Shown here: positions 1 through 35,170 of the stretch, one piece after another
How positions within the stretch are numbered: the stretch's first letter is position 1
Layout: the number at the start of each line of letters is the position of its first letter
DNA from: a virus
Length of the DNA stretch: 37,100 nucleotides
IMG/VR virus record: IMGVR_UViG_3300029449_000009
Span: 1-37,100 of that record
Direction: 5' to 3' (one strand)
Position numbers and translations under genes: made by a program
Notes under the pieces: model-generated
What the model was told of the DNA's origin: nothing
Database searches by the model: none
The model's input: the letters and a program-made list of their open reading frames with translations, nothing else

Positions 1-214
1 GAGGAGGACTGAAATAGGGGGGCAATATTGTTTATATTTGTTTTAAAAAATTGTATTGATGTTCCTACCTTATTTTGGACACTTCCAAGAGCTTTCAGTT
101 CTTGGGCCGTTGCGTCAGATTCGTTAATACCCTTTTTAAAGGCATCTTCCAAAACTAACCCCATTTCCTTATTGATTTTTTTGGCCTCTGATATAATTTG
201 CTTTTGATTATTGG
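1..214. repeat. Terminal overlap, left copy
   Basis: These 214 bases match 36887-37100 except at position 128 (T here, A at 37014). The window is thus a circular or circularly permuted molecule whose ends overlap. The repeat lies inside the minor capsid gene, so it is an assembly or packaging overlap and not a regulatory repeat. The substitution changes Ile (this copy) to Phe (right copy) in the protein. Confidence 0.95.
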
Positions 215-380
215 TAAATAATTCTAAATCGAGTAACTTTTGTATCTTCCAGTCTTGAACCGATAAATCTTTACCTTGATTAAGTTGTCTACTAATCTTC
301 TTTAATAATTTTAATTCTAGCTCTTCAAAAAGTTCACTGACTTTGTATGCCTCGTTTTTAAATGTGTTTGGGCTTATCAT
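1..380 (-). CDS. Minor capsid protein, N-terminal part (gene crosses the circular junction)
   Basis: This is the 5' part of a gene that continues in the right-hand copy (36178-37100). Joined across the overlap, the frame is 362 codons: 72 residues before the MGLVLEDAF stretch plus 290 more. The ATG at 380 lies just after the portal stop at 385, as expected for portal-minor capsid order. The N-terminal half is helical and charged. The C-terminal half carries a Cys/His motif typical of the phage minor capsid 2 family, associated with the portal. This copy reads Lys-Gly-Ile-Asn where the right copy reads Lys-Gly-Phe-Asn. The family name rests on gene order and the HPNCRH motif in the other half. 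Confidence 0.85.
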   Translation of the reverse strand, partial: MISPNTFKNEAYKVSELFEELELKLLKKISRQLNQGKDLSVQDWKIQKLLDLELFTNNQKQIISEAKKINKEMGLVLEDAFKKGINESDATAQELKALGSVQNKVGTSIQFFKTNINNIAPLFQSS

Positions 381-384
381 TTAC

Positions 385-1827
385 TTACTCCTGTTGGAAT
401 AAATTATCCATTGTTATAGGATTATCCATTTTGCTTAACTGATTTACTATTTCTTCTTTTTCTTCTGTTGATTTAGTATCTCCGTATAGTTCTTCAACAA
501 TTAAATCATTTGTAAGTATTTTAAATTGTTTTGCTTTTGATAATGCTTCTATTTTGTTTTCAAAACTTAAACTTGCATATTCTCCAAATTCAACATTGAT
601 TTCATATTCTTTTGCCTTTCTACCAGCCATTTCGTCTATCATTTGCAGACCTTTTTCAAATAGCAATTTCCAAGCCTCTTCTAATGTTCTTATAATATCA
701 GTTCTGGTGAATATTGATGTTTTTTCGGCTTCTCTTCGATCTTCGGCATTTCGTTCGTTAGAATTATCAATTCCTAATGTAGAAGGGCTTAATACTCCGA
801 GCAATGCTTGATTTATGTAATCTTTTAATACTCCACTTTGCCCGTCAAACTCGATATTAGGCTGAACTGTTTGTATTTTTTCGTCTACATCTTTTCCAGA
901 TGGTTCTGTAAGTATATATCTGCTATCCATTCCATCAGGCATTAAATATTCGCCAGTTCTTGTGTCTTTAGGAAGCTTATCAGCGGGAATATATCTTTCT
1001 GTTCTACTGTCTCTTATAGAATCACCCATAATTGATATTGTTTCATCGATAGCGTCAAATATATCTTTCTTTTGTGCAAATATACTATCTGCGTAAATTT
1101 TTAACGGTATAGCAAACAAAATTTCGTTTTTTAATTTTTGTTCTGGTTCTAGCTCCGCTGTTTCTGGTATACTATTTAAGTCTACTAATTGAAGCTCGTT
1201 ATTTTTAACAACATATAAAGTATGATAATGGATTCCTTTTTCTCTTCGTTCGTGAAGACAATATGTTTTGTTGCCTCTTTCGTAATAACTCTTAAATGTA
1301 ATTGCTATAAGTCGATTATATTTATATTCTACTTCTACATTTTTTGAAGGAACATAAGTGAATATAGGAAGCTTACTAACCTCAGTATCAACATCTATTT
1401 TAAATGCTCCGTCAGGATTTACTAAAGCAAGTGCGGTTGACGCTTTTGCTAGTTCTTTAAAATTGTTTTCTTTAATTAGCTCATCAACAAGTTCTTGCTC
1501 TTTTGCTTTGTCAGTAGTTATCTTATAACCATCTCTTACTGTTATTTGAACTAATTTATCAATCATCATTGCCGGAAGTCCAGAGTGCATTTTTCTTATA
1601 TGCGTATAAGGATATGATCTGCTCCAAAAATAATTGAACTTTATATCACTATTAACAAATTGTCCGTAGAAGTTTTCTAGTAGTTGAGATTTTCCCATAT
1701 ACCATATTCTATTTTCTATTTGTTCATTGTATTCTGCTACATCTTTATCATATAACTGATTTTCCATAGGCTTACCTCCCATTATAAATTTATAAAGACC
1801 TTTTTGTAAATTATCTATCAATTTCAA
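385..1827 (-). CDS. Portal protein (SPP1 gp6-like)
   Basis: This is the dodecameric portal through which DNA is packaged and to which the tail is joined. The call rests on its place between the terminase large subunit and the minor capsid protein, its length of 480 residues, and the portal-like body: a charged N-terminus, a GLPAMMIDKLVQ segment, and a C-terminal stretch with SPSTLGIDNSNERNAEDRRE, the helical region typical of the SPP1-type family. I choose the TTG at 1827, giving MKLIDNLQKG, because GAGGTGAT lies five bases upstream. A longer frame from a GTG at 1836 would place the start inside that ribosome site. The 5' end overlaps the terminase gene by 17 bases, implying coupled translation. 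Confidence 0.9.
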   Translation of the reverse strand: MKLIDNLQKGLYKFIMGGKPMENQLYDKDVAEYNEQIENRIWYMGKSQLLENFYGQFVNSDIKFNYFWSRSYPYTHIRKMHSGLPAMMIDKLVQITVRDGYKITTDKAKEQELVDELIKENNFKELAKASTALALVNPDGAFKIDVDTEVSKLPIFTYVPSKNVEVEYKYNRLIAITFKSYYERGNKTYCLHERREKGIHYHTLYVVKNNELQLVDLNSIPETAELEPEQKLKNEILFAIPLKIYADSIFAQKKDIFDAIDETISIMGDSIRDSRTERYIPADKLPKDTRTGEYLMPDGMDSRYILTEPSGKDVDEKIQTVQPNIEFDGQSGVLKDYINQALLGVLSPSTLGIDNSNERNAEDRREAEKTSIFTRTDIIRTLEEAWKLLFEKGLQMIDEMAGRKAKEYEINVEFGEYASLSFENKIEALSKAKQFKILTNDLIVEELYGDTKSTEEKEEIVNQLSKMDNPITMDNLFQQE

Positions 1828-3241
1828 CCCTATCACCTCTTTTTAATAGTTTATCGAAATATGGAGTAGCTCCGTATTCTGTTCCGTCAATAGCGTGAGC
1901 TGGGTCTTTAATTCGCTCTTCTTTATCAGGTTGATATTCTATGTTTTCTAATTCACTTATATAATTAATGCACTTATCAGTTGCCAGCCAACGCTTCTGT
2001 GCCATCAATCCTTTTGTTATGTCCTGTCTTTCTTTTATCTTTCGTTTCCAACAAGGCATAAACTTCAACATAAATGCCTTTTGCTTTGTTGCCTCTTGAT
2101 TTAATAAACCTATAAACCCAGGAGCTGCGTTATCTACATAAATAAGCAGTCTTTGATTCCATTTGAATTCTATTCGCTTGGCTTCAAAGAAGTTTACCAA
2201 ATCGGCAGCATATTCATTTATTTCCTTTTTTCTATTTAACTCGTAATTACTATGGTAATATTCATCTATCACAACTAACTTGTCGTATACTCCAGACAAG
2301 CCCATAAACATTCCGGTAGTAGCACTTTCAACTTGTCCGTAGTCAACTCCTCCAGTAAATGTTATGAACTTATGTTCGCTTAATGATTTGTAGGATATTA
2401 TGTTATCATTATTAAACACATCTTCATAAACAAGACCTTCGGCTGTCCCAGGCATTCCCAATCCGACTGTATCATACTTCTTTGGGTTTTCCCTCTTTAG
2501 CCTTTCAAACCTAGCCAAGTCTTCAGGAGTTAAAAACTCATTTAATTGATAATTTGTAATAGCGAACAATTGTTTGGTATCAACTGTAATCGGTTCTCCG
2601 TGATACATTACTTGTTCTTGCCCTTCAATCTCTAACACTTGTTTTCCGCTTTGTTCTAGCAATGATTTTTCTGGTATTAACTTTTTTATCAACCTTTGCA
2701 CTATCCAATGTTTTAATAGCCAAGGATTTAACGAAGCTACCGTTTGCATAAAGTAACCGCTTGGTAACTCTCCGCGCAAACTAAATCTTATATTGTCATA
2801 TGTTTCTTCTTTATCTATTTCAAACGCTTCTTCAAACCAACCCCAACATAATACAAGCTCGGGATCATCAATAGTTATTGAAGCTATTTTTTGGTAGTCA
2901 TCAAGACCCCTAAAAAATATTTTTTGACCTGTAATTTTATTTGTAGCTTGAACTGGACTAGTTATAAAGTCCCATTCGTTTATCATATGAAGTTTTCGCA
3001 TAGCCCATTTCATATCTGCATAACAGCTATCCCTTAATGTATTAGCATTGTTTCTCATACATAATAAACAAGCTCTAGGATATTCTTTTAAAAGTTTAGC
3101 CCAACGAAGCGAAATGGTTTTTGATTTTTTGGAAGCTTTACTTCCCATTATAATCATTTCATCGCCCTTAAACTTCCATATTTCACTGTAACCTTTGCCA
3201 ACTATCTTTTGAAGTGAAAAAACATTATTCGTCAACATCAT
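1811..3241 (-). CDS. terL: Terminase large subunit
   Basis: This is the packaging motor ATPase and nuclease. Near residues 32-42 there is a degenerate Walker A loop (GSKASKKSKT) and further on a Walker B-like acidic stretch (CWGWFEEAFE). The C-terminal half has RNase H-like nuclease features: an acidic strand in GGVDYGQVESATTG, then VVIDEYYHS and LIYVDNAAPG. At 476 residues it is a normal length for the PBSX/Terminase_3 group. The gene overlaps the end of the small subunit by 17 bases. ATG codons at 3241 and 3238 are both possible starts, and no strong ribosome site separates them, so translation is probably coupled to terS. Confidence 0.93.
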   Translation of the reverse strand: MMLTNNVFSLQKIVGKGYSEIWKFKGDEMIIMGSKASKKSKTISLRWAKLLKEYPRACLLCMRNNANTLRDSCYADMKWAMRKLHMINEWDFITSPVQATNKITGQKIFFRGLDDYQKIASITIDDPELVLCWGWFEEAFEIDKEETYDNIRFSLRGELPSGYFMQTVASLNPWLLKHWIVQRLIKKLIPEKSLLEQSGKQVLEIEGQEQVMYHGEPITVDTKQLFAITNYQLNEFLTPEDLARFERLKRENPKKYDTVGLGMPGTAEGLVYEDVFNNDNIISYKSLSEHKFITFTGGVDYGQVESATTGMFMGLSGVYDKLVVIDEYYHSNYELNRKKEINEYAADLVNFFEAKRIEFKWNQRLLIYVDNAAPGFIGLLNQEATKQKAFMLKFMPCWKRKIKERQDITKGLMAQKRWLATDKCINYISELENIEYQPDKEERIKDPAHAIDGTEYGATPYFDKLLKRGDRVEIDR

Positions 3242-3575
3242 CTTTAAGCAACACAGTGCTTACTCCGCTAACCTCCGTTTTGTCGGTAGGTTTTTCTCCT
3301 ATAGTATCTCTTACAACTTCAAAAGCTTTTTCGCTTCCGCCAATACTCTTTTTAATCATAGCTAGGCACATAGCGTCTTCATTACTTAAATCTTCAAGTC
3401 CTTCAATGCCAGTTTTTGAAGAAAGCATTGCCTTCAAAATTCTTGCCAATCTCTTTTCTTCTCTAATCTGTTCTCCACGCACTTGCCCGCCTTTACTTCG
3501 TATTGCAAACTTCTCTTCTTCCGTCATTTTATCAAACGAAACTAAGTTGGGATACTCTGGGTTGCGATTATCCAT
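3225..3575 (-). CDS. terS: Terminase small subunit
   Basis: This is a 116-residue protein expected to recognise the packaging site and recruit the large subunit. It has the basic KGGQVRGEQIREEKR region seen in many Firmicutes phage small terminases, followed by helices and an acidic tail. It lies immediately before and overlaps terL. GAGGTGATA lies just before the ATG at 3575. It is the first gene after the polysaccharide cassette and a 148-base non-coding stretch, so it probably begins the late transcription unit. Confidence 0.8.
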   Translation of the reverse strand: MDNRNPEYPNLVSFDKMTEEEKFAIRSKGGQVRGEQIREEKRLARILKAMLSSKTGIEGLEDLSNEDAMCLAMIKKSIGGSEKAFEVVRDTIGEKPTDKTEVSGVSTVLLKDDVDE

Positions 3576-3673
3576 ATTATCACCTCATCATTATATATAT
3601 TTGACACTACCCCACTCCGCCGGAAACACATATAAAAATGATTTTTCCTTATTTTATAGGCGTTCTATCACTT

Positions 3674-3703
3674 CCCTACTGAAAAATATAGAAGAGAGTA
3701 GGG
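3674..3703 (-). other. Inverted repeat in the terS leader (possible pac or control site)
   Basis: A perfect 7-bp inverted repeat, CCCTACT and AGTAGGG, with a 16-base loop, lies in the only gene-free stretch (3576-3723) between the polysaccharide cassette and terS. No U-run follows it on the minus strand, so it is not an ordinary terminator. Small terminases often bind DNA in or near their own gene, which makes a packaging site conceivable. No good sigma-A promoter for the late genes is visible here; TATAAT near 3587-3592 lacks a -35 element. Confidence 0.35.
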
Positions 3704-3723
3704 CGGTCTGTTTACATATCAAA

Positions 3724-5445
3724 TTATGTCAACACAATTAACTTGTATCCCTTAGAAACAAAGTCGTTATATTGGTCTAGCGTTAGTCCCATTTCTTTGC
3801 CCCTATGATACATTTTGTGAGCGTCTTTAAATGTTCTTATTACTCTCACTCTTATAATGTCGCTAGCTAGCTTTTTGATTAGTTCAGGCTCCTCTATGTA
3901 TTCATACACATCATATTTCCCGCCCAAATCACCAATCATTTCTTGCCATTGTTTTACACTATATTGCGGCTTATATTTGAATCCTTTTAAATTACTTGAA
4001 TACATTTTTTCAACAACTTCATCAAGATTAGACAAATCTCTTTTTAATATAAATCCATTTTTGCCATCTTTAATTTGTTCTCCGGCACTAGCAAAATCTG
4101 TTACTATTGTTGGAACATTTCTTTCTTGAAATTCTGTTATTGTGTTACCGTGTGATTCGCTATCACTTAATTGTAGTCCGTAGTCTGCTCCCCACATATG
4201 GTCGCAAACATCAAGCCTTGGTTTTCTAAAGATCATTCCGTCTATCAATTCATCTGGCTTTTCGTTTGTAAATATTTCCCAAATAAAGGGAATACTTTTT
4301 TCGTGTAGCTTTTTAGCCATAGCCTTCATTCTGTTCCAGCCTTTTTCTGGCGAAAGCCTGCTAGCCGTTACCAAATGTAAAACTCGTCTTTCTTCTGGTT
4401 TGATAAATAGGTTATATAATACTCCGCATTTTTCTCTTGGAAAAACCTTTTCAAAAGCTTTAGCCGAAGCTTCGCTATCTGCAACTATTTTTGTTGTTTT
4501 ACTTGGACGTTCCCAATGGAATTTTAAGTCTTCCATATTATTGCATATAATTTGCACCACATCATTTTGAGCTGTTATATATTTATCAATCCTTGTTGGG
4601 TTTAATCCGTAATAGTAAAATGTTCCGCAGTTTATAGGTTGATTATCAAACTTAACACATTTAACCAACTTTTTTAATCTCTTTAATTGTTCCGCATCTG
4701 CAGTATCATACATAAATACAACATCATATACTTTGCTTAATTCATAACAAGCATTATATAAAGCGGTTTCTATTCCGCCTATAAGCGATAAATAAGATCT
4801 GTATAACACGACTTGTGTATTCACTTCATTTGGTCGTTCTTCTGTTATCTTTTTTGCTAAATATTGTGTAGATAGACTATCTTCTCTTCCGCTATTATAA
4901 ATATATAAAACATCTTCTATATTTACTTGTTTTCCCTTTCTCGTTAGTTGATTGAACTTTATCTCTTCACCAATTTGTAAGTTTTCAGGAAACCTATTTT
5001 CTCCAATTACTTTTCTATTATATACGCAGTTCCAAACACTATTATTTCCTTTAGGTGGTTGGTCTGTTATTATCATATCTCTTCCGTTGCTATATTTCCA
5101 ACTATGATAACCATAGTCAAATTCACCTTTATCTATCTGTTTAAGCCACTTTTCTATAAAGTTTGGCATAACATTATCATCACTATCAATAAATGCCACA
5201 TATTGGCCTTTATACTTGCTTAAACCTATATTGCGAGCCTTGCTTACGCCACCGTTTTTTACGTGAATAACATTTATATCATATTTATCTAATCTAACTT
5301 CGTTACACCCATCATCTATTAAGATAATTTCAACTTCATCCGTTTTTTGTTTCATTAAGTTATCTAAAAGCTCGACTGTATATTCGTATGTATTGTAGTA
5401 AGGTATTATAATCGATAACTTAATCAAATTTTCCTCTTTTGTCAT
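3724..5445 (-). CDS. Two-domain glycosyltransferase (GT2-GT4 fusion)
   Basis: Residues 10-115 form a GT-A family 2 domain: LSIIIPYYN, the acidic IILIDDG, GGVSKARNIGLS, and the metal-binding DSDD at 87-90. From about residue 210 a GT-B domain follows, with a glycine-rich IGGIET loop, VTASRLSPEKGW near residue 355, and the family 4 pattern DSESHGNTITEFQERNVPTIV. One 573-residue chain can therefore make two sugar transfers, probably in the cytoplasm on a lipid-linked or protein acceptor. The start at 5445 follows AAGGTGG and overlaps the upstream gene by 26 bases. It is last in the cassette. Donor and acceptor cannot be told from sequence. Confidence 0.85.
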   Translation of the reverse strand: MTKEENLIKLSIIIPYYNTYEYTVELLDNLMKQKTDEVEIILIDDGCNEVRLDKYDINVIHVKNGGVSKARNIGLSKYKGQYVAFIDSDDNVMPNFIEKWLKQIDKGEFDYGYHSWKYSNGRDMIITDQPPKGNNSVWNCVYNRKVIGENRFPENLQIGEEIKFNQLTRKGKQVNIEDVLYIYNSGREDSLSTQYLAKKITEERPNEVNTQVVLYRSYLSLIGGIETALYNACYELSKVYDVVFMYDTADAEQLKRLKKLVKCVKFDNQPINCGTFYYYGLNPTRIDKYITAQNDVVQIICNNMEDLKFHWERPSKTTKIVADSEASAKAFEKVFPREKCGVLYNLFIKPEERRVLHLVTASRLSPEKGWNRMKAMAKKLHEKSIPFIWEIFTNEKPDELIDGMIFRKPRLDVCDHMWGADYGLQLSDSESHGNTITEFQERNVPTIVTDFASAGEQIKDGKNGFILKRDLSNLDEVVEKMYSSNLKGFKYKPQYSVKQWQEMIGDLGGKYDVYEYIEEPELIKKLASDIIRVRVIRTFKDAHKMYHRGKEMGLTLDQYNDFVSKGYKLIVLT

Positions 5446-6187
5446 AATCCACCTTTATTTTCTCTTTATTTAAAAATTCGGTTGCTTCTTTTGACCATTT
5501 CCCTTGAACTATTCCCCAAGGTTCTCGTTCTTTGTAATAACCTATATTTATTATATGATCTCCTGCATTACACCAAAACTTGTAGTCGACATTAGGTATT
5601 GTTGTTTCCCATTGCCAAGCGGTTAGTCCTTCTGGAAGCAAACTAATCAACTTTTTTCTATCCCAAATTGCTGGTTGACAATTACAAAGATAATGTGTCT
5701 CTGGTTTTCTTAAAGCATACATATGTTCGATTATATGAGGCTTTCTAATATATTGTTTTAATTGAAAGAGAACATTTTGAAAACTTACCATTGCTGTCTT
5801 TTCATCAAACATCAATAACGCTTCTTCTATTCTCTTGATGTCGACTTTTTCTCTTATGAAGAAGTCATCCAAAAGTAATATCACATAATCTGTTGTTATC
5901 TGTTCTAACGCTTTTCTTGTTCTATCAGTCCAGTTTCCTGTTGTCCTTATAGATGTTATTAAATCACTTTGTTTGTATTCTGTTCCTAAAAATAAATTAT
6001 ATTCACAATTAGGCCAATACTTATTGAATAGTTTATAAAATATTTCCCAAAGATCATCATAAGCATCACACGACATTACAAGTATGCTTACATTCTCTCC
6101 GCTGACTTTATCAGACTTGGATTGTATTTTATCACTTTGTTTATTTCCACTGGAATATATTCCACTTTGTCCTTTATCATATTCCAT
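5420..6187 (-). CDS. Putative glycosyltransferase of the surface-glycan cassette
   Basis: This 255-residue protein looks like a GT-A-type transferase. A first strand NVSILVMSCDAYDDLW leads to YVILLLDDFFI, whose DD could bind the metal-nucleotide, and a later WQWETTIPNVDYKFWC region could be an acceptor-side lid. I cannot place it in a named family. The ATG at 6187 has AAAGGA eight bases upstream, yet it lies 100 bases inside the preceding gene. The first 30 or so residues are polar and low in complexity, so the folded domain starts around residue 33. No closer in-frame ATG, GTG or TTG keeps the first strand. Its place between two glycan genes supports the role. Confidence 0.6.
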   Translation of the reverse strand: MEYDKGQSGIYSSGNKQSDKIQSKSDKVSGENVSILVMSCDAYDDLWEIFYKLFNKYWPNCEYNLFLGTEYKQSDLITSIRTTGNWTDRTRKALEQITTDYVILLLDDFFIREKVDIKRIEEALLMFDEKTAMVSFQNVLFQLKQYIRKPHIIEHMYALRKPETHYLCNCQPAIWDRKKLISLLPEGLTAWQWETTIPNVDYKFWCNAGDHIINIGYYKEREPWGIVQGKWSKEATEFLNKEKIKVDYDKRGKFD

Positions 6188-6852
6188 AATTGTTGTCCTT
6201 TTGCCGTCTTTATTATTACTACTGATACACCAATATTATCTGCAAATTTTGGATATTCGTTTTGTATTCCCCAAAAGTCACCTATTTGTATATCGCTATT
6301 TGAATTCATATTTTTAAATTGACACTGATAACACTTCTTATTTAAATTTCTGTTTTTTAGAAACGTATTCATAAACTCGTTATGTTGAAATGGTGACGTT
6401 TTGTCACCGTTTATTGTTATATTAAAGTTAGTCCATCCGTGTATCTTATCGCGGAAGTTTATTTTAGTTATATTATTTTTTTCACAATATTCATTAAACG
6501 ATTTTACCGTTGGAGTTCCGTGACATATTACATCTACTTGATATAGGTTATCTCTTTTAGGTAGCATTTGACAAGGCGTTCCGCTCCATAGCATTGGAGC
6601 TGTCCGATTATTTCGGACAGTTGAAACTACTTCTTTTGGTATTGTTGACACAACATACTTACTACCTCGTAGCTTATATAAATCGGCTTTATTATCTACG
6701 CACATATGTTCGCACTTTATACCATTCCACCCAGCCCCTATTACTATACCTTCTTGGTCTAATATAGCTTCTGCTAGGGCCGTAAATATACCACCGCTAG
6801 AACTATGTAATCTTACATCTATATCTTTATGTTTAGCTGCATATACTTTCAT
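6088..6852 (-). CDS. FrhB-like (coenzyme F420 hydrogenase beta subunit family) protein lacking the ferredoxin module
   Basis: This 254-residue flavoprotein-type protein has family signatures in order: SSSGG at 17-21, GTPCQ at 91-95, CHGTP at 110-114, FRDK at 133-136, CYQCQF at 174-179 and IGDFWG at 190-195. Full-length relatives usually carry two [4Fe-4S] clusters in an N-terminal ferredoxin-like part, absent here. Truncated relatives are common beside pyruvyl transferases in capsule and exopolysaccharide clusters, with an unclear redox or sugar-modifying role. I choose the ATG at 6852, preceded by AAGGGGTG, over a GTG at 6858. It overlaps the pyruvyl transferase gene by 20 bases. Confidence 0.82.
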   Translation of the reverse strand: MKVYAAKHKDIDVRLHSSSGGIFTALAEAILDQEGIVIGAGWNGIKCEHMCVDNKADLYKLRGSKYVVSTIPKEVVSTVRNNRTAPMLWSGTPCQMLPKRDNLYQVDVICHGTPTVKSFNEYCEKNNITKINFRDKIHGWTNFNITINGDKTSPFQHNEFMNTFLKNRNLNKKCYQCQFKNMNSNSDIQIGDFWGIQNEYPKFADNIGVSVVIIKTAKGQQLWNMIKDKVEYIPVEINKVIKYNPSLIKSAERM

Positions 6853-7861
6853 AAACACCCCTTAATTTATAACACCTTTGTTTATAATCGGGCATAATGT
6901 CTTCTAGATGTTGTTTTATATCGTTATAATTATCTTCAAGCCATTTAAAGCCGTTTTTAAGTTCGTCTGGGCTCGTTAAATCTTCTTTAGGTATAACATA
7001 GCCATTGTCTGTTCCAAATAGGTCTAAAGCTATTCCTTTGCTCTTTATTGAGTAACCTAGCACCAATGTTGGAATACATAAGCTATAACTTGCTATGCTT
7101 ACGTGTGTTCTTGCTGTTGCCACCATTTTACACTTGCTTATATAGCCCTTTATTCGCTCTGCGCTTCCCTCTGCATATCTTATTCTGCCATTATTGACAT
7201 ACAGTTCATCAAGCATGGGGTAGTCTGTGTTTTTATATTGGTCTACGTGCGGTATAAGCAATACATTATATTGAGTATGGTTCATAAGATAATCCATAAG
7301 TGCTTTATAGTTTTGTTTTGACATATCATCGCTTACAAAGTTACTTGCGTTTATACCTATCCATTCTTTCCCCATATCATCAAAATATACATCTTCGGTT
7401 GGTAGAACGAATGCACTATCTGGTATAACCTTTGCCTCTATACCTATCTTCTTTAATGCTTCTTGTGTTAGTGTTTCTCTTGCTGTTATAAGGTCATATC
7501 TTTTCAAATCGTCTTGGGCTTTAATAACTGTGTCTTCGTCTATGCTACAACCCAATAAACAAGTCTTGCCCTTTTGCTTATGTATATATTTATTATAATT
7601 ATCTAACAATGGCAGACTTCCTGGATAACAATAGTTGTCTCCACCAATAGATATTGCCACATCATCTTTAGCTACATCTATAAAATCCGTTTGTCTTATT
7701 ATGTTTATGTTATCTAAATCTAATCCCCATTTATAATCTTCCCAATGATTAAATGAATATAGGTCTATTTCTTCTAGTTGTAAAATTTCTTTTAATGTTT
7801 TTACTAATGCCTCGCAGCCTTTGTTGCCACTTCCGCTATGAAAATACATTATTGTTTTCAT
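6833..7861 (-). CDS. Polysaccharide pyruvyl transferase family protein
   Basis: Members transfer a pyruvyl group from phosphoenolpyruvate to a sugar, giving a negatively charged ketal on cell-surface polysaccharides. The 342-residue protein has the family N-terminus (HSGSGNKGCEALV, residues 8-20), an ISIGGDNYCYPG loop near 90, the TARETLTQEAL region, and a GT-B-like C-terminal half with ATARTHVSIASYSL and PTLVLGYSIKSKGIA. Its length is normal. AGGAGATAAA lies just before the ATG and eight bases separate it from the epimerase-like gene, so the two share an operon. Relatives in other pathways transfer other groups, so pyruvylation is inferred from family. Confidence 0.88.
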   Translation of the reverse strand: MKTIMYFHSGSGNKGCEALVKTLKEILQLEEIDLYSFNHWEDYKWGLDLDNINIIRQTDFIDVAKDDVAISIGGDNYCYPGSLPLLDNYNKYIHKQKGKTCLLGCSIDEDTVIKAQDDLKRYDLITARETLTQEALKKIGIEAKVIPDSAFVLPTEDVYFDDMGKEWIGINASNFVSDDMSKQNYKALMDYLMNHTQYNVLLIPHVDQYKNTDYPMLDELYVNNGRIRYAEGSAERIKGYISKCKMVATARTHVSIASYSLCIPTLVLGYSIKSKGIALDLFGTDNGYVIPKEDLTSPDELKNGFKWLEDNYNDIKQHLEDIMPDYKQRCYKLRGVYESICS

Positions 7862-7869
7862 TTTATCTC

Positions 7870-8787
7870 CTAACAGTTATCTATTAAGTCTTTTAGTTCT
7901 TCCATAGTATATCTAGGTGCGTTATCACTGGTTAATGAAGTGTCATACTTTTTATTGTATTCGTAATCTTCATTTATAATATAAAAGTCTCCATCCTCTT
8001 TACTATGGTTTAATTCTCTTTCGGTTAATAAGGCTTCATCCGTCTTTTCGCTTTTTACCGCTCCAGTTACAATTTGGTTTTCGCTTATGCAGTCTGCTAT
8101 CATTTTAACTGTTGCTGATTTACTTTTATATATTACCAAGTCTTTATGTTGTCCATTCTTAAGAGCATATACTACACTATCAACCGCTTTTTCTATTGGT
8201 ATGTAAAATCTTGTCATACTTGGGTCTGTTAGTGTTAGCGGCTTTCCTTGTTCTCTTAAGTTTTTGAAATAAGGAATTACGCTTCCACTTGATCCTGCTA
8301 CATTTCCATATCTTGTCATTGTTATGGTTGTGTTTTTATTATCTATTCCAAGTATAATTCTTTCCATCATATACTTTGTAGCTCCGTAAGTAGTTGTTGC
8401 ATTTGCCGCTTTGTCCGTTGACAAGCAAACTAACTTTTCTACATTGTTTTCTATACAAGCTTTTATAACGTTTTTACTTCCGTCTACATTTATAGCTATT
8501 GCTTCTTCTGGTTGTTCTTCACAAGTAAACACATGTTTTAAAGCTGCCGTGTGAATACAATAGTCGCAACCCTTTAACGACTCTAAAAGTAATTTGTAAC
8601 TTCTTATATCGCCTAATATGAACTTTAAGCGACCATCATTATACTTTCTTTCGCTTGCTACTCGTTTTTCTTCGTTCCTACTAAAAACTCTTATTTCCTT
8701 TACATTTGTTCCTAGCAAATACTTTACCATTGCATTTGCAAAGCTTCCGTTACCTGTTATAAAAATTGTTTTGTCTTTTAAGTCCAT
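7870..8787 (-). CDS. PseB/FlaA1-type nucleotide-sugar dehydratase/epimerase
   Basis: This 305-residue short-chain dehydrogenase-like protein belongs to the Polysacc_synt_2 group. Members convert UDP-GlcNAc by 4,6-dehydration, with or without 5-epimerisation, using bound NAD(P). STDK at 123-126 and Tyr134-xxx-Lys138 keep the spacing of the PseB catalytic set. GDIRS, HTAALKHV, TRYGNVAGSSGSVIP and TDPSMTRF are family hallmarks. The Rossmann loop is unusual: TGNGSFA at 11-17 instead of TGGTGSFG, one residue shorter and ending in Ala. AAAGGA lies eight bases before the ATG. It is the first gene of the cassette behind the promoter at 8824-8852, so it probably makes the donor sugar. Confidence 0.87.
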   Translation of the reverse strand: MDLKDKTIFITGNGSFANAMVKYLLGTNVKEIRVFSRNEEKRVASERKYNDGRLKFILGDIRSYKLLLESLKGCDYCIHTAALKHVFTCEEQPEEAIAINVDGSKNVIKACIENNVEKLVCLSTDKAANATTTYGATKYMMERIILGIDNKNTTITMTRYGNVAGSSGSVIPYFKNLREQGKPLTLTDPSMTRFYIPIEKAVDSVVYALKNGQHKDLVIYKSKSATVKMIADCISENQIVTGAVKSEKTDEALLTERELNHSKEDGDFYIINEDYEYNKKYDTSLTSDNAPRYTMEELKDLIDNC

Positions 8788-8823
8788 ATACGGCTTCCTT
8801 TAAATTGTTTTTTATTCCCCTTT

Positions 8824-8852
8824 ATTATACCACGAAAAGTCTTTATTTGCAA
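8824..8852 (-). promoter_or_regulatory. Strong sigma-A-type promoter of the glycan cassette
   Basis: On the minus strand TTGCAA (8852-8847) and TATAAT (8829-8824) are separated by 17 bases, with TG one base before the -10 element. It lies 37 bases ahead of the first cassette gene and downstream of the last early gene. A near-consensus housekeeping promoter here suggests expression independent of the phage early and late programme, as in morons. No obvious operator is seen around it. Confidence 0.85.
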
Positions 8853-8859
8853 GCGTTTT

Positions 8860-9012
8860 CTAAACATTTGTTCGTGTTTTTAGCATATTTTTAAGGTTTT
8901 CTATCTCGCTCTTGTAATATTCTTTCAGTTTTTCGTTGCTTGTTGTTTCTGCTTTATGTTTTAGTTGTTTTATTGTTAGTTCTATTTTAATTTCACTTGC
9001 TGGCTTTTTAAT
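8860..9012 (-). CDS. Small coiled-coil protein with probable AUU start
   Basis: An open frame of 50 codons overlaps the RusA stop. CGGAGG lies six bases before an ATT at 9012, and no ATG, GTG or TTG occurs in frame before a Met near the C-terminus. The product, starting (I/M)KKPASEIKIEL, is highly charged and helical (IKQLKHKAETTSNEKLKEY), a likely short coiled coil. The strong ribosome site and the coding-like content favour a real gene with a rare start. The alternative is a remnant that lost its ATG. Confidence 0.5.
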   Translation of the reverse strand: MKKPASEIKIELTIKQLKHKAETTSNEKLKEYYKSEIENLKNMLKTRTNV

Positions 9013-9391
9013 CTTTTGCCTCCGTTATTGTTACTACTGTTCTTGGTTTTTTATTGTCGAATTCTATTCTAGATCCGTCTGTTCCCCTTACAACCTTGTA
9101 ACTATCGTCTACTATGCAATTGTATTTTTGTAATACGTCGTGCAATGCTCCATTTAGATTTGTTAGGTCTACTCTGTGCTTTGTTGCCCTGTAATATATT
9201 GCTTTTATATTTACTGGATAATCTATGTTGTATGGCTCTATATATGGAGCACAATCTATTTCATATTGTCTATATAATTGACTTGGCACTATAAACGGCT
9301 TGCCACTTTGTCGGTTTTTGAATATCTGCGAGCTATTCTTCTTCGTGCGAGGGTTTATAGGTATTATAAAGCTTATTGTTTTTTGGTTCAC
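9008..9391 (-). CDS. rusA: RusA-like Holliday junction resolvase
   Basis: This homodimeric endonuclease resolves four-way junctions formed during phage recombination and before packaging. The 127-residue product has FIIPINPRTKKNSSQIF at the start, and the RusA acidic set in RVDLTNLNGALHDVL followed by CIVDDSYKV. I prefer the GTG at 9391, which overlaps the stop of the preceding micro-gene and lies 10 bases after AGGAG. A GTG at 9400 would lie one base from that site. As in many Firmicutes phages it closes the recombination part of the early region. Confidence 0.85.
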   Translation of the reverse strand: MNQKTISFIIPINPRTKKNSSQIFKNRQSGKPFIVPSQLYRQYEIDCAPYIEPYNIDYPVNIKAIYYRATKHRVDLTNLNGALHDVLQKYNCIVDDSYKVVRGTDGSRIEFDNKKPRTVVTITEAKD

Positions 9392-9477
9392 TTGAACCAC
9401 GCTCCTAACAAAATCAATGACAATATCATAAGTATCATTCTAATTGTCAATTTTATCGCTTCTTCTATTCCATACAT
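9388..9477 (-). CDS. MYGIEEA micro-protein A (29 aa, membrane)
   Basis: This 29-residue frame starts at an ATG after AAAAGGAAAATAAATA and ends at a TGA that overlaps the RusA GTG. The product begins MYGIEEAIKLT and continues as one hydrophobic segment rich in Ile, Leu and Met, so it is a likely single-span membrane peptide. It is closely related to the 28-residue product at 12076-12162, which begins MYGIEEALRLT. Conservation of two tiny frames in one genome supports translation. Function is unknown; holin-like, exclusion or membrane-signalling roles are all possible. Confidence 0.55.
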   Translation of the reverse strand: MYGIEEAIKLTIRMILMILSLILLGAWFK

Positions 9478-9494
9478 TATTTATTTTCCTTTTT

Positions 9495-9526
9495 TGCACA
9501 ATAACTTGTGATTATGTGCATTTTTT
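9495..9526 (+). terminator. Terminator-like hairpin on the plus strand
   Basis: TGCACA and TGTGCA (9495-9500 and 9515-9520) form a stem that can extend by three pairs with one bulge. Six T residues follow on the plus strand and T residues also precede it. On the minus strand, where all genes lie, only A residues follow, so it would not stop the early transcript. It could block antisense transcription or act as an RNA processing hairpin in the 110-base gap between the HNH gene and micro-protein A. Confidence 0.35.
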
Positions 9527-9587
9527 GTGAACTTTTAACATTATTTATCTCAATTAAATGTTACTTTATACCATTTATTGATATACT

Positions 9588-9935
9588 TTATCTCTTCCTT
9601 TTTGAATAGCCTTTTTCCAGACACATTCTTTCTAAATCTTGTTTTGCTAGCTTTCTAAACATTTCCTTTACCTCTTCATCGGTTTCTTGTTTATAGGCTA
9701 AAAGATAATTTTTAATTTGTTCCCAATATACTGGACTTGCGTGTTCTATAAAGTGTATTTTACAATGCGGATTTTCTGTTATCATTGCTCCGTTTCGTGC
9801 TGTCTTTCTACCGCCGTCACACTTTTTGTTTATGTGATGAAAAGTAAGCTTGTTTCTATCTGTTATATCATAACCAAAGAAACAATAATATCCGTGTTGT
9901 TGTATCAATACATTTTTCGCTGCCACTTTTTTCAT
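9588..9935 (-). CDS. HNH endonuclease-like protein
   Basis: This 115-residue protein has the HNH pattern: LTFHHINKKCDGG (the His pair and Asp-Gly-Gly), then ARNGAMI supplying the Asn, and HCKIHFIE with the final His. Such proteins nick or cut DNA as homing enzymes or packaging aids. The start at 9935 follows GGAGATGATATAG. It sits beside the tRNA and structured-RNA cluster. A free-standing HNH gene beside tRNA genes is common for homing elements. I see no intron boundary that would enclose it. Confidence 0.78.
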   Translation of the reverse strand: MKKVAAKNVLIQQHGYYCFFGYDITDRNKLTFHHINKKCDGGRKTARNGAMITENPHCKIHFIEHASPVYWEQIKNYLLAYKQETDEEVKEMFRKLAKQDLERMCLEKGYSKRKR

Positions 9936-9936
9936 C

Positions 9937-9988
9937 TATATCATCTCCAACTTATTTCGGTGTATCGAAATAACTTTATATCATCTCC
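9937..9988 (-). repeat. Duplicated ribosome site around a perfect hairpin, upstream of the HNH gene
   Basis: The 12-base unit GGAGATGATATA occurs twice (9937-9948 and 9977-9988, minus strand). Between the copies lies a perfect 8-bp inverted repeat, TTATTTCG and CGAAATAA (9952-9959 and 9966-9973), with a six-base loop. The second copy in transcription order is the HNH ribosome site. The first copy has no start codon at the right distance. The arrangement could tune HNH translation or be a scar of insertion. Confidence 0.45.
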
Positions 9989-10008
9989 TGTTGGAGTTTT
10001 TTTTAAAT

Positions 10009-10091
10009 TGGTGCTCGTAAAAGGATTTGAACCTTTACGCCTTCGCAACGGATTTTAAGTCCGCTATGTCTACCAGTTCCATCATACGAGC
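10009..10091 (-). tRNA. tRNA-Leu (anticodon UAA)
   Basis: An 83-nt class II tRNA with encoded CCA. The acceptor GCTCGTA pairs with TACGAGC. The D arm is ATG...CAT with GG in the loop. The anticodon stem CGGA/TCCG holds the loop CTTAAAA, giving anticodon TAA. A short variable stem (GCGAAGGC) and a T arm with GGTTCAAATCC complete it. It reads UUA, a frequent Leu codon in this AT-rich genome, so it may supplement host supply. Its 5' end is one base from the CCA of the tRNA-like element upstream, implying tandem processing. Confidence 0.93.
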
Positions 10092-10092
10092 T

Positions 10093-10179
10093 TGGTGTAT
10101 GTAGTAGGAATTGAACCTATCCGCCGTTAATGTGTTTTTAGTACAGCTTTTACACCTGCTGATTCATTATTATACCTAC
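10093..10179 (-). tRNA. Degenerate or unusual tRNA-like element
   Basis: An 87-nt stretch ends in a canonical T loop (GGTTCAATTCC), a seven-base acceptor 3' strand (TACATAC), discriminator A and encoded CCA. GTAGGTA at its 5' end pairs with six of the seven acceptor bases. The D arm does not form well. The anticodon region ACTAAAA has only a three-pair stem (TGT/ACA) and lacks a clear U33 and anticodon. It is a decayed class II tRNA, or a tRNA-like 3' domain of the structured RNA upstream, whose closing helix uses part of the same 5' strand (10174-10179). Confidence 0.4.
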
Positions 10180-10402
10180 TTGGAAAGATATATATTCATA
10201 CCGAGCGAGCAGTCTAGGTCTTCAGTTATTCCCCTAGTCGGAAGACTCCACGGTACACAACTTAGATTTTTCAAACTCTCCTAAACTCTAAGTGCGTTTC
10301 GGAAGTAGTCAGCTTCCTCTTCAGCCGTGTACTAGGGCTAGATGTTCTCTGTCAACTGCTCTTGAGAACCCACGGTATCAACATACATCTCTCCAAGTAA
10401 GC
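10174..10402 (-). ncRNA. Structured RNA of unknown class, about 230 nt, with pseudoknot
   Basis: On the minus strand GCTTACTTGGAGAGAT (10402-10387) can pair with ATCTTTCCAAGTAGGT (10189-10174), 16 pairs with three wobbles. ATACCG/CGGTAT (10373-10378 with 10198-10203) stacks inside. Further perfect stems are GTTCTC/GAGAAC (10364-10369 with 10344-10349), GGAAG/CTTCC (10313-10317 with 10301-10305), ACTTAGA/TCTAAGT (10287-10293 with 10260-10266) and GTCTTC/GAAGAC (10241-10246 with 10218-10223). The loop of the last pairs by seven bases with CCCTAGT at 10331-10337, a pseudoknot; CACGG/CCGTG (10325-10329 with 10249-10253) nests inside. No open frame explains the region. I cannot assign it to tmRNA, RNase P, group I intron, ROOL or GOLLD. 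Confidence 0.6.
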
Positions 10403-10485
10403 ATATAGCTTACTAATTGACAAATCTACTTATCATCATTATATTATCAGTCGGTTTGTCAAATCCTATGATAGAAGTTGTTTTG

Positions 10486-10716
10486 TCATTGATTTTGTCT
10501 TTTTTCTATCATCTTGTTTATTATTAGCAGTATGTCTTCAATTTGTTGTTTCTGTTCTGCTGCTGTTTCTGCTAGTTCTCTTAATATTGCTTGCAATACT
10601 TTCTCGTTTTTAACCTGTTCTTCTCTATGCTTTGTCAACTCATCGTTTACCATTTTTATTGTTTCGGTGTTAAACTTAATATTTTCTATTAGTTGTATCA
10701 TTTCGTTTTCTTGCAT
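10486..10716 (-). CDS. Small coiled-coil protein, unknown function
   Basis: This 76-residue, Lys/Glu-rich helical protein begins MQENEMIQLIENIKFN and has heptad-like hydrophobics through most of its length, with no membrane segment. The start lies 19 bases inside the end of the phosphoesterase gene, so translation is likely coupled. It is the last gene before the RNA cluster. From 10403 to 10485 I see only an AGTAAGC/GCTTACT hairpin, which competes with the long RNA helix, and a TTGACA box without a properly spaced -10. Confidence 0.6.
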   Translation of the reverse strand: MQENEMIQLIENIKFNTETIKMVNDELTKHREEQVKNEKVLQAILRELAETAAEQKQQIEDILLIINKMIEKRQNQ

Positions 10717-12062
10717 TTTGTCTTCACCGCACCTTTTTCAATAATTTCGTTGTTTTTTAGTTCGTAGGTGTCTGCATTATGGAATAAAATGTTATATGGT
10801 CCTGCTATATTTGACTTATAAACGGGAGCTTGAACTATTCGCGGAGCCGTTGTGTAACCATTTTCATAGTGCCAACTATCTATTCCGTCCATATTCCCTA
10901 TTGTTCTATTTCCTATTCCGCTTTTTCTTTCAAACTTTTCATCGTGGGTATGTCCTGTAATCCATTCGGCATATTCTGTTTTCCCCCAAAGTTCTCTTGC
11001 TTCCACTTGCATAAGTTCATACAAACGATTTTTTTCTTTATCTCCGTGCGTAAAGCCTATCAAGTTTTTGCCGATCTGCACATAATATCTTGATGTAGCA
11101 TTATCAATAATGGTTACTCTTTTGTCATTGTGATAATAACCAGCAATTGCCTTTATTATTGTATAAGATAAAATTGTATCGTGATTACCTGGGCTATAAA
11201 ACGCTTCCACTTCAAGTCCGTTGTCCGCAACATACGCTATTAGTTTGTTTAAAGTATCTAAAGTTTTAGAATATACCTCTCTTGTTGTTCCGTTTATATC
11301 TTGAGGCGTTCCCTTGGTTGTTGTTTTTTGCATATTATCAATATGTAATAAGTCTTGTCCTATTGGAAATAATACTTTCCCAACATTCTCTTGTTTAGCT
11401 CTTTCCACCAATTTAGCAACTGCTATTTTGTATCTTTCTTGTGCTATTTCCATATTGTATGGAGAGTTTGTTTCTTCTTCCCAAGCATACTTTCCAAAAT
11501 GAGCGTCAAACATAGGTAATATCATTACTGCGTCTTGACCCTTTAACTGCTTAAACTTTATTTTAGTTGATTGTTTTGATAATATTTCTTTTATCCATTC
11601 AATATCTTTTTCTGTAACAAGCCAATTGTTTATAGGCTTAAATCTTGCGTGAACTCCATAGTTTTTAGAAATCATAGGCTCTTTGGCTTTATTTTTCATT
11701 GTGGTATTCCACATTTTAACTTCGTAGCCAACGCATTCCCATTTTTCTTCGTCAAGACCAAAGGCTTCTCTAATCTCGTCTAGTTTCATATTGGCTGGGT
11801 TTGTATTGATAACAGAATGAGCCTTTAAAACTTTTCCGTCAAACAACAATGTGTCGTTTGTATCGGTTTCTAAAATGTTATCGTCATATTCTTCAATAAG
11901 TTCCTTTATTTTTTCAATACGATCAGGATGTTTAGTTGGGTCATTAAGTATTTGATAAACATAGGGAACGCTAATGTTTAAGTGTTCGGCTATTTCCTTT
12001 TTATCAATTTTGAGCTTCTTTAACATTTCTTTTAGTTCTTTGCTAGTATCTATCGTTGCCAT
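10698..12062 (-). CDS. Helix-turn-helix plus metallophosphoesterase protein
   Basis: The N-terminal 60 residues form an XRE-like helix-turn-helix (DKKEIAEHLNISVPYVYQIL). After a linker, a calcineurin-type phosphoesterase follows: MFDAHFGK (metal Asp and His), IGQDLLHIDN, SPGNHDT (the GNHD signature), GFTHGDK and ITGHTHDEKF. Such proteins hydrolyse phosphodiesters in nucleic acids or nucleotides. The fusion suggests a DNA-targeted nuclease or repair enzyme, but the substrate is unknown. I choose the ATG at 12062, six bases after GGAGG, giving 454 residues; a TTG at 12074 would overlap that site. It belongs to the operon from the consensus promoter at 12370. Confidence 0.83.
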   Translation of the reverse strand: MATIDTSKELKEMLKKLKIDKKEIAEHLNISVPYVYQILNDPTKHPDRIEKIKELIEEYDDNILETDTNDTLLFDGKVLKAHSVINTNPANMKLDEIREAFGLDEEKWECVGYEVKMWNTTMKNKAKEPMISKNYGVHARFKPINNWLVTEKDIEWIKEILSKQSTKIKFKQLKGQDAVMILPMFDAHFGKYAWEEETNSPYNMEIAQERYKIAVAKLVERAKQENVGKVLFPIGQDLLHIDNMQKTTTKGTPQDINGTTREVYSKTLDTLNKLIAYVADNGLEVEAFYSPGNHDTILSYTIIKAIAGYYHNDKRVTIIDNATSRYYVQIGKNLIGFTHGDKEKNRLYELMQVEARELWGKTEYAEWITGHTHDEKFERKSGIGNRTIGNMDGIDSWHYENGYTTAPRIVQAPVYKSNIAGPYNILFHNADTYELKNNEIIEKGAVKTKCKKTK

Positions 12063-12075
12063 ATTTCCCTCCAAA

Positions 12076-12162
12076 TTATAAAGATTTAAAAATTAAAAAT
12101 ATTATCAATCCATAAATTATAGCTTTTGCTGTAAGTCGCAACGCCTCTTCAATACCATACAT
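12076..12162 (-). CDS. MYGIEEA micro-protein B (28 aa, membrane)
   Basis: This 28-residue frame begins inside the end of the preceding gene (overlap of 14 bases). The product starts MYGIEEALRLTAKAI and ends in a hydrophobic run (GLIIFLIF), a likely single-span membrane peptide. The N-terminal eleven residues match micro-protein A at 9388-9477 at nine positions, while the surrounding DNA differs. Function unknown. Confidence 0.55.
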   Translation of the reverse strand: MYGIEEALRLTAKAIIYGLIIFLIFKSL

Positions 12163-12349
12163 CGTCTTCGTCCTTGTAATAATAATCGTCTTTATCTCTT
12201 TTTCTCTTCTTTTCTAGTTTTTCCTTTAATTCAAGCTCTGCTTCGTTATGGGCTATTTTAGACATCAAACGTTCTTCATAAGTCCTTTTTCTAGGCAATT
12301 CTTGTTCGCATATATCTTTGAAATATTGTTTGATTTCTTCTTCGCTCAT
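12149..12349 (-). CDS. Small charged protein, unknown function
   Basis: This 66-residue protein is rich in Lys, Glu and Asp (KRKRDKDDYYYKDEDDVWY at the C-terminus), helical in the first half and with no membrane segment. It is the first gene behind the consensus promoter at 12370-12398 and has GAGGAACGATT before its ATG. The acidic tail could be a DNA mimic or an interaction tail, but nothing specific supports that. Confidence 0.65.
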   Translation of the reverse strand: MSEEEIKQYFKDICEQELPRKRTYEERLMSKIAHNEAELELKEKLEKKRKRDKDDYYYKDEDDVWY

Positions 12350-12369
12350 AATCGTTCCTCTATATTAAC

Positions 12370-12398
12370 ATTATAAAACAAAAGTTCGCATTTGTCAA
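12370..12398 (-). promoter_or_regulatory. Perfect-consensus sigma-A promoter
   Basis: TTGACA (12398-12393) and TATAAT (12375-12370) are separated by exactly 17 bases on the minus strand. The -35 box overlaps the stop of the preceding gene. It should start transcription about 15 bases before the 66-residue gene and drive the phosphoesterase, the RNA cluster, the HNH gene and RusA. Both hexamers are perfect, so it is probably one of the strongest promoters in the genome. Confidence 0.9.
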
Positions 12399-12619
12399 TA
12401 TAAATCTTTTTTATTTATATAATTCCACATAGTTTCTAGGTCTTTTGGCGTAAATTTCATTTTGAAGAATTCTTTTTTGTAGCTTTGCCTATCTTCTAGC
12501 GGTTGTTCCCTATACCAATCCCTTATTCTCTTTTTGCGTTTATCAAAGTCATATTTACTAACAAATATTGGATTGTTGTTTAAATACTTTTTCCCTTTGA
12601 TGTTAAATAAGTCTATCAA
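12395..12619 (-). CDS. Small basic protein, unknown function
   Basis: This 74-residue protein is Lys/Arg-rich and aromatic (KRKKRIRDWYREQPLEDRQSY). The end of the gene forms the -35 box of the next promoter. It has no recognisable domain. It may bind nucleic acid, judging only from charge. It belongs to the operon read from about 19 kb. Confidence 0.65.
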   Translation of the reverse strand: MIDLFNIKGKKYLNNNPIFVSKYDFDKRKKRIRDWYREQPLEDRQSYKKEFFKMKFTPKDLETMWNYINKKDLY

Positions 12620-12657
12620 GTTTATTCCTTTCTATAAGTAATTTTTTCCGTTTTTTT

Positions 12658-12918
12658 CTACTTTATCACTATTTCCATGCCGTAAATATTTATAATGTCA
12701 TCTGTTGTTTCTAAATTTTTGGAAGAATTCTGTAATAAAAAATGGTCTAAATCTTTAGTGATTTGAATATATTCTGGAACAAATCCGTTTCTTTTTATAT
12801 ACTTTTCTTTTAATTCCAAAATTCTTTTTAAAATATCTCCATAAGTAAAAATAGCCTGTTCGTCTTCTTCATCAAAAAAGAATATCAATACTTTTTTTTC
12901 TTTAATTTCGTCTTTCAT
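12658..12918 (-). CDS. Small protein, unknown function
   Basis: An 86-residue protein with a charged start, a hydrophobic VLIFFFDEEDEQAIF stretch, and helices after it. I recognise no family. AGAAAGG lies about 10 bases before the ATG, and 14 bases separate it from the gene upstream. It belongs to the recombination operon by position. Confidence 0.65.
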   Translation of the reverse strand: MKDEIKEKKVLIFFFDEEDEQAIFTYGDILKRILELKEKYIKRNGFVPEYIQITKDLDHFLLQNSSKNLETTDDIINIYGMEIVIK

Positions 12919-12932
12919 TTTGTTTTTCCTTT

Positions 12933-14939: not shown

Positions 14940-14951
14940 ATATTCTCCTTT

Positions 14952-34318: not shown

Positions 34319-35170
34319 TTATGCTGAATATTCTGTTCCAGTATAAACAATCATATCTTCTGCCACTGCTTTTGTTCCATAAGAATAGAACAATTCAATA
34401 GACCAGTCGTTTGATAGAGGAATTTTTTCTAGTTGGTAAGGATCGCTCATAACAGGTTGTGCTACTGCTCCTTCTCCCATAACCATAAAGTCAACTCCGC
34501 TAGGAAGGTAATTTGATTTGAACGCTCTAACTCCGTGGAAGTTACCAACTTCTCCTGCTGCTGTATTGATGTTTGCGTTGTAAGCATCATCAATATCATT
34601 TCTTAAGTCAGAGTATTTCGCTACTGAAAGGATAACGGAAATCATATCTCTATCCATTCCATCAACATAATCGTTGTCTAGAGTTTCAAGTTCTACGATT
34701 GCTTCTTCAACTTCTAATGCAGTAGTAGTTGCTTCTTCAGATGGTGAGAAATAAGTCCCTTCTTGGTATGCTTCTGTGAAGAACGCTCTTTCAAGTTCTC
34801 TTTTCATGGATTGTTGATGGTTGTTTTGTCTACGAGTTACAAGTCCAACAACTCCATCTAATGTAAGGTCTTTCTTTGCGATTTCTTCGATAATTTCTTT
34901 GTCAGTATCAATGTTTACAGTTATTTCTGCTCTTTGGATTGCATCTCCTGCTCCAGCGGTTCTTGCAGTTCCATAATCTTGTGAAGCACTGTTAACAAAT
35001 CTCTTTACAACAACGCTTCCAGCCTCTGGTGTTCCTGAGTAGCTATTATTTTTAAGAATGCTTGAAATTGTGCTAGCTTGCACATTGTCAATAACACCTC
35101 TATATAATTCAGCTAATTTTGCAGTTGCCCCAGCTTCTGTTAACAAACTAAGTGCGTCTGTTCTTGCCAT
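34319..35170 (-). CDS. Major capsid protein
   Basis: A 283-residue protein between scaffold and connector genes. It starts MARTDALSLLTEAGATAKLA, has a beta-rich core (SVVVKRFVNSASQDYGTART, ITVNIDTDKEIIEEIAKKDL), an E-rich helix and a C-terminal SNDWSIELFYSYGTKAVA. The HK97 fold is inferred from size and neighbours. It should be the most abundant virion protein. Confidence 0.87.
   Translation of the reverse strand: MARTDALSLLTEAGATAKLAELYRGVIDNVQASTISSILKNNSYSGTPEAGSVVVKRFVNSASQDYGTARTAGAGDAIQRAEITVNIDTDKEIIEEIAKKDLTLDGVVGLVTRRQNNHQQSMKRELERAFFTEAYQEGTYFSPSEEATTTALEVEEAIVELETLDNDYVDGMDRDMISVILSVAKYSDLRNDIDDAYNANINTAAGEVGNFHGVRAFKSNYLPSGVDFMVMGEGAVAQPVMSDPYQLEKIPLSNDWSIELFYSYGTKAVAEDMIVYTGTEYSA

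Follow-up and report, generated by a model that had tools for sequence, protein, structure and literature searches.

What is a cassette of polysaccharide-type enzymes doing directly ahead of the terminase genes of a phage? The question is raised by IMG/VR virus record IMGVR_UViG_3300029449_000009, the whole of which (37,100 nt) is the window analyzed here. Five minus-strand open reading frames (ORFs), designated genes A to E in reading order, run from position 8787 to 3724 between the early genes and a terS-like gene. We propose, at about an even chance of being right, that they form a phage-resident, self-contained pathway that glycosylates a virion protein, most likely one in the head, and that genes B and C are an optional pyruvyl add-on. 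The virion, and probably its head, is favored because the core genes follow the capsid gene in a podovirus-like family and because the glycosyltransferase (GT) of several relatives (that of the window only weakly) has a domain in common with a post-capsid protein of Gram-positive phages.

Gene content of the cassette

The first-pass annotation described one overlapping operon of five genes between the early genes and terS. The ORFs, with their motifs intact, bear this out:

7870..8787, minus strand: gene A, UDP-N-acetylhexosamine (UDP-HexNAc) 4,6-dehydratase-like short-chain dehydrogenase/reductase (SDR) of the FnlA/CapE/FlaA1/PseB superfamily, 305 aa (Pfam PF02719)
6833..7861, minus strand: gene B, polysaccharide pyruvyl transferase, 342 aa (PF04230)
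6088..6852, minus strand: gene C, FrhB/FdhB-like protein (PF04432 and PF04422), with its start at the ATG at 6852
5420..6187, minus strand: gene D, GT-A-fold glycosyltransferase (fold predicted from a model), fused to E in several relatives
3724..5445, minus strand: gene E, two-domain glycosyltransferase (N-terminal GT2, C-terminal GT4 of the GT-B fold; Pfam), 573 aa
3727..3867, minus strand: C-terminal domain of E, residues 527 to 573 or so, homologous in relatives to the small post-capsid protein and diverged in the window copy

Gene A matches Polysacc_synt_2 (PF02719) at 3e-68, and its nearest solved structures are 4j2o, CapE, and FlaA1. D125, K126, Y134, and K138, invariant in four phages, supply the D-K and Y-x3-K pairs of the superfamily. 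The earlier PseB/FlaA1-type label is refined to membership of that superfamily, and no exact product can be named, because the scores fall below the NCBIfam equivalog cut-offs (FnlA, 247 of 730 bits; PseB, 230 of 408 bits). The Rossmann motif of the window protein is shortened (TG-NGSFA). Gene A of L004, L005, L105, and L186 (L numbers are our handles for compared loci) also has TGNGSFA-like forms of this SDR nucleotide-binding motif in place of TGGTGSFG, and the usual form is retained in L002, L009, and L121.

Gene B matches PF04230 (PS_pyruv_trans) with 108 bits against a cut-off of 25.3 (E value, 8.7e-31), and R128, E129, R251, H253, and K273 are invariant in four phages; the conserved R, H, and K we take to be catalytic, from CsaB and Pvg1. 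It is a probable phosphoenolpyruvate-dependent pyruvyl transferase. A PDB sequence search with gene B gave no usable match.

The ATG start of gene C at 6852 matches the orthologues better than the GTG at 6858. The protein belongs to the FrhB/FdhB family (FrhB_FdhB_C, 2.5e-16; FrhB_FdhB_N, 1.6e-8; domain scores of 60.3 and 35 bits against cut-offs of 23.3 and 22, respectively) and scores only 26.8 of the 331.5 bits set for the equivalog FrhB, the F420 hydrogenase beta subunit; an FrhB single-sequence scan gave no match. Four cysteines are invariant among the cassette phages. Gene C is a probable flavin/Fe-S redox protein, assigned to no particular function, that accompanies B in the subgroup with the full cassette.

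For gene D, no Pfam family was matched; a fair model (pTM 0.66) predicts a GT-A fold, which refines the earlier label of putative glycosyltransferase. Both domains of gene E score above the Pfam cut-offs (GT2, 3e-23; GT4, 9e-7), in line with the GT2-GT4 fusion noted before, and its DSDD and E-x7-E motifs are invariant in five phages. For gene E, the model scored poorly overall (pTM 0.34), and only the fold classes were taken from it.

Phages sharing all five genes

A scan with gene B returned four viral contigs (L002, L003, L004, and L005), of which L002 and L003, with identical values, were counted as one. These three other distinct, divergent uncultivated phages carry all five genes in the same A-to-E order, directly before terminase and portal genes. 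Genes A, B, and C are 50 to 77% identical to those of the window, and D and E are 47 to 54% identical. Among phage proteins, the large terminase subunit (TerL) usually ranks with the better conserved. Between the window and the three phages, TerL is about 23% identical and the portal protein 27 to 28%; a search by TerL found no close relatives of the window phage. Because the cassette is 47 to 77% identical and yet TerL is only about 23% identical, the cassette appears to have been exchanged between phage lineages or to be under unusually strong constraint. In a tree of gene B, the four phage proteins form one clade on a long stem with 100/100 support. D and E are fused in the relatives (780 to 788 aa). 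An additional GT2 gene follows C in L002, L003, and L005.

The record ends (1-214 and 36887-37100) match each other over 214 bp except at position 128, a single mismatch that would hide the overlap from exact-repeat tests. Because the ends overlap, the genome is probably closed and circular, at about 36.9 kb. These ends, together with the same order in three further phages, rule out an assembly chimera and remove the chance, raised at first, of a join with a bacterial contig. The broader idea that the block is recently captured host cargo with no phage function, or a chimera, draws on enzyme families typical of bacteria; it is largely refuted and barely credible given the overlapping ends, the order kept in three other phages, the invariant catalytic residues, the gene B clade, and phage-like codon usage. 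The cassette falls within the codon-usage range of the phage's other genes.

A core module and its position after capsid genes

A scan with gene E yielded 103 viral contigs with relatives, 80 of which were kept. Gene A was present in 20 and gene D in 32 of these loci, with B and C in only 4. PF04230 was absent from all 11 separately searched phage records carrying related core genes. In L102, gene A is 76% identical to that of the window, B and C are missing between A and D, and the GT2 domain of gene E is duplicated. Because B and C are rare among the loci with E relatives and lacking in L102, we treat A, D, and E as the core and B and C as an optional pair. Where B and C would be, L102 has a short ORF (1794-2045, approximate) with two Cys pairs (CKYC and CPIC).

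In seven contigs (L104, L105, L113, L121, L122, L186, and L193), gene A starts 42 to 70 bp past a major capsid gene that encodes 279 aa and lies on the same strand. The capsid identity comes from phrog_422 (1e-49 to 1e-56) in the four of these that were scanned. Wherever the contig continues, D and E, fused or separate, come after A. L104 and L105 have a gene matching phrog_13046 after E; its L104 product is weakly similar to a head-tail adaptor (Pfam E value, 0.007).

The second line of evidence is a small domain. The last approximately 47 residues of the L005 GT match phrog_933 (1.4e-8), and a profile of the GT C termini picks up, in Butyrivibrio phage Arawn, a 78-aa protein (7.5e-7) and the end of the phage's own GT4 protein (3e-4). 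Arawn and another Butyrivibrio phage, Idris, are the closest isolates that the searches returned; of the cassette they have just a gene for GT4 plus the C-terminal domain. In Arawn and Streptococcus Javan444, and also in Listeria B025, Staphylococcus vB_SauS_308, Lactobacillus phiJB, and a Clostridia prophage, the gene for the stand-alone domain protein comes immediately after that for the major capsid protein. A reciprocal profile, built from stand-alone proteins only, recovers the GTs of L005 (1.9e-10) and L002 (1e-5). The A-D-E genes of the podovirus-like family occupy this same slot after the capsid gene.

The same chemistry could instead serve a tail tube or tail tip protein, or a receptor-binding protein, and so tune adsorption. 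Capsid and tail tube are both glycosylated in mycobacteriophages (PMC12363180), but the neighboring genes and the common domain point to the head region, and we consider a tail acceptor improbable.

The capsid gene of the window itself does not adjoin the cassette:

34319..35170, minus strand: major capsid protein (phrog_267, 4.7e-10), a putative acceptor

An unlisted ORF of 57 aa with a Lys-rich end (34134-34307, approximate, minus strand) lies between this gene and the next, in the slot that a phrog_933-like protein has in other phages; similarity to that protein was undetectable. Among contigs of >100 kb, the E-like GT frame is broken mainly by in-frame TGA (L115, 7926-9687; L119, 8714-10216; L140, 7905-8580), which suggests that these phages read TGA as an amino acid.

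Comparison with bacterial polysaccharide loci

The gene set was at first assigned to host capsule and exopolysaccharide (EPS) clusters, an assignment that the bacterial loci do not support. Around the nearest relatives of gene B, which are 32 to 42% identical to the window protein, 61 loci were compared, mostly from Lachnospiraceae and Butyrivibrio. C lies near B in 4 of them, A in 1, and D in none, and A, B, and C are together in 0 of the 61. The cassette has no flippase, polymerase, or initiating phosphoglycosyltransferase, and so lacks the export and polymerization genes of a capsule or EPS cluster. A copy of a host EPS cluster was rejected for the bacterial genomes reached, in which the cassette arrangement was never found. 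The loci of Eubacterium callanderi (L046), Ruminococcus (L019), and Terrisporobacter (L023) resemble the cassette in having B and C relatives close together with GT2 genes nearby, but they have neither gene D nor the A-B-C-D-E order, and their B proteins are 37 to 40% identical.

When 391 genomes of one class were searched with the GT fusion profile at an E value of 1e-30, the one match was on a 4.3-kb contig (L091). This Clostridia contig carries a GT2-GT4 gene with the same C-terminal domain beside HNH, nucleotidyltransferase-like, and possible phage late-regulator genes and is probably a prophage fragment. Among 50,697 phage records, gene B had one match, the 4.9-kb fecal contig MT838780 (L082), which was rejected as a phage relative because its genes look bacterial. 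Both MT838780 and MT835622 (L081) are fecal "Bacteriophage sp." records marked UNVERIFIED that resemble bacterial polysaccharide loci, and such records mislead searches for phage sugar genes.

These comparisons bear on the chief rival role, in which the enzymes alter or extend a lipid-linked wall or capsule precursor at the cytoplasmic face, bringing receptor masking, phage exclusion, or better progeny release. The enzyme families are all known from host polysaccharide clusters as well, and relatives of B and C lie among GT genes in the four bacterial loci that have them close together. In Eggerthella lenta, a prophage polysaccharide operon that can reach six genes includes a pyruvyl transferase domain (PMC8778435), and Bacillus anthracis csaB mutants resist some phages, so that pyruvylated wall polymers matter to phages (PMC9703825). 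We nevertheless consider host-surface modification rather unlikely: the flippase, polymerase, and initiating transferase are missing, as is GtrA; no integrase is present, which leaves little time for a serotype change to count; and the core genes stand in head operons of other phages. Domain searches found no tyrosine integrase and no serine recombinase/integrase in the record, in agreement with the early view that lysogeny genes are lacking. Of the two purposes initially offered, virion decoration is now favored and a change of the host surface less so.

Proposed virion glycosylation pathway

We infer the following pathway, including its substrates, acceptor, timing, pyruvylation, and the role of gene C. 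It would operate late in infection, in the cytoplasm of the host, where gene A would convert host UDP-HexNAc to a 4-keto-6-deoxy nucleotide sugar. D and the GT2 and GT4 domains of E would then add up to three sugars, so that a virion protein would carry a short oligosaccharide. A role in helping E reach the assembling particle may fall to its small C-terminal domain. B would add a pyruvyl group to the glycan as an anionic cap, with C performing a redox step linked to pyruvylation. Membrane segments were found in none of the five proteins, which, with the absence of GtrA, supports a virion acceptor. Outside the cassette, the only proteins with transmembrane-like segments are a holin-like ORF and the tape measure protein.

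Several points weigh against virion glycosylation. The capsid proteins of the seven capsid-adjacent contigs are 51 to 100% identical and constitute one podovirus-like family, and one or two acquisitions, instead of seven separate ones, may account for the position. A head marker is lacking in 48 of the 80 loci (with a limited marker set), and the cassette of the window sits before terS, away from the capsid gene. The C-terminal domain of the window gene E has diverged, with an E value of about 5 against the stand-alone profile. Lipid-linked intermediates of the host could serve soluble GTs equally well as substrates, and the keto-sugar would need finishing by host enzymes or direct use. The virion glycan and its acceptor are predictions. 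In its fullest form, virion glycosylation would mean an integrase-less phage with a complete soluble pathway for a pyruvylated oligosaccharide on its own head, a GT docking domain borrowed from a head-associated protein, and a B/C pair that is a swappable cap in a widespread module; we hold this version to be possible but tentative.

Operon layout and other genome features

Neighboring genes of the cassette overlap or are 8 bp apart, each of the five starts is preceded by a Shine-Dalgarno-like sequence, and, as first reported, no terminator was found on the minus strand. The cassette had also been given its own promoter:

8852-8824, minus strand: promoter-like TTGCAA-17-TATAAT with an extended -10 TG, 36 bp before gene A (pattern match)

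The site is present, but sites of this kind occur at chance level in this AT-rich sequence (83 in positions 1-20000 against 88 in shuffles), and the promoter is therefore only plausible. In L002 and L005, the cassette begins 12 to 17 bp past the preceding ORF, and a promoter private to the cassette is therefore not conserved. A perfect TTGACA-17-TATAAT lies upstream of the exonuclease gene (12398-12370, minus strand); it is the sole 12/12 site in 1-20000 and may drive an operon that holds the cassette.

Upstream of the cassette are an exonuclease, a RusA-like gene, an HNH-like gene, and a tRNA. Positions 10698-12074 encode a helix-turn-helix domain fused to a DNA-repair-exonuclease-like phosphoesterase; in L002 and L004, too, relatives of the exonuclease part lie upstream of the cassette. 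Downstream, in the same direction, are the packaging genes:

3225..3575, minus strand: terS-like gene, from a phrog_2412 match and its position before terL
1811..3241, minus strand: TerL
385..1836, minus strand: portal protein

Two DNA C5-methyltransferase genes (13881-14939 and 17554-18639) are 65% identical and are accompanied by two paralogous small ORFs (18636-18896 and 20800-21078), both starting MNNSAKEMFEELGY; we read the set as a local duplication. The methyltransferases, and the ability of phage GTs to glycosylate DNA bases (as cited in PMC12619734), would fit glycosylation of hypermodified DNA as a defense against restriction. We reject this as highly improbable. The marker for it, a thymidylate-synthase-type hydroxymethylase (PF00303), is absent from the record, further base-hydroxylating enzymes were not recognized in it, and we know of no DNA-hypermodification pathway with a pyruvyl transferase or a sugar dehydratase. 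A macro-domain protein (21694-22137) and a pentapeptide-repeat and DUF5758 protein (22131-22847) are encoded by overlapping genes, possibly a counter-defense pair.

Relation to known systems and significance

Virion glycosylation is known from mycobacteriophages, whose own GTs are reported to modify proteins of the capsid and the tail tube (PMC12363180; PMC12619734); the finding in Che8, Corndog, and Myrna is credited to Freeman et al. 2023 by PMC12363180, PMC12691614, and PMC12619734. The cassette is similar in its phage-encoded GTs. It differs in having its own nucleotide-sugar dehydratase, three GT domains, a pyruvyl transferase, and an FrhB-like protein, in its other hosts, and in that its glycan is a prediction. 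Gtr seroconversion cassettes of temperate phages also alter glycans with phage GT genes, but a GtrA flippase and a membrane-anchored GT are missing here, and Gtr O-antigen conversion was rejected because GtrA (PF04138) is absent from the record. Chlorella virus, a virus of eukaryotes, encodes sugar-nucleotide and GT enzymes for glycosylation of its own capsid, a parallel in the kind of enzyme encoded.

The first-pass annotation called pyruvyl transfer by a phage undescribed. At the level of annotation this does not hold: a pyruvyl transferase gene in a phage-borne operon is not a first, since the polysaccharide operon of E. lenta prophage clade 5 has such a domain (PMC8778435), assigned by annotation. 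That operon, which its authors relate to exopolysaccharide or capsule biosynthesis, belongs to a prophage and has a WecB-like gene, and it resembles the cassette in being phage-borne with a polysaccharide pyruvyl transferase domain. In the open literature, we found no paper pairing FrhB with a pyruvyl transferase and no description of a domain common to a GT and a post-capsid protein or of a capsid-linked module that combines a pyruvyl/FrhB pair with three GT domains and its own dehydratase. What appears to be new is the self-contained form, linked to the capsid and predicted to pyruvylate.

A module of a dehydratase and several GTs, found repeatedly next to capsid or terminase genes of uncultivated phages, would suggest that virion glycosylation is more common than the mycobacteriophages alone indicate, that phages supply the sugar chemistry themselves, and that gene swaps diversify the glycan, through extra or duplicated GT2 domains and the pyruvyl/FrhB pair. 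The GT domain in common with a capsid-adjacent protein offers a concrete, testable mechanism of targeting, and an anionic pyruvyl cap could change how phages adsorb, bind mucus, or are recognized by antibodies.

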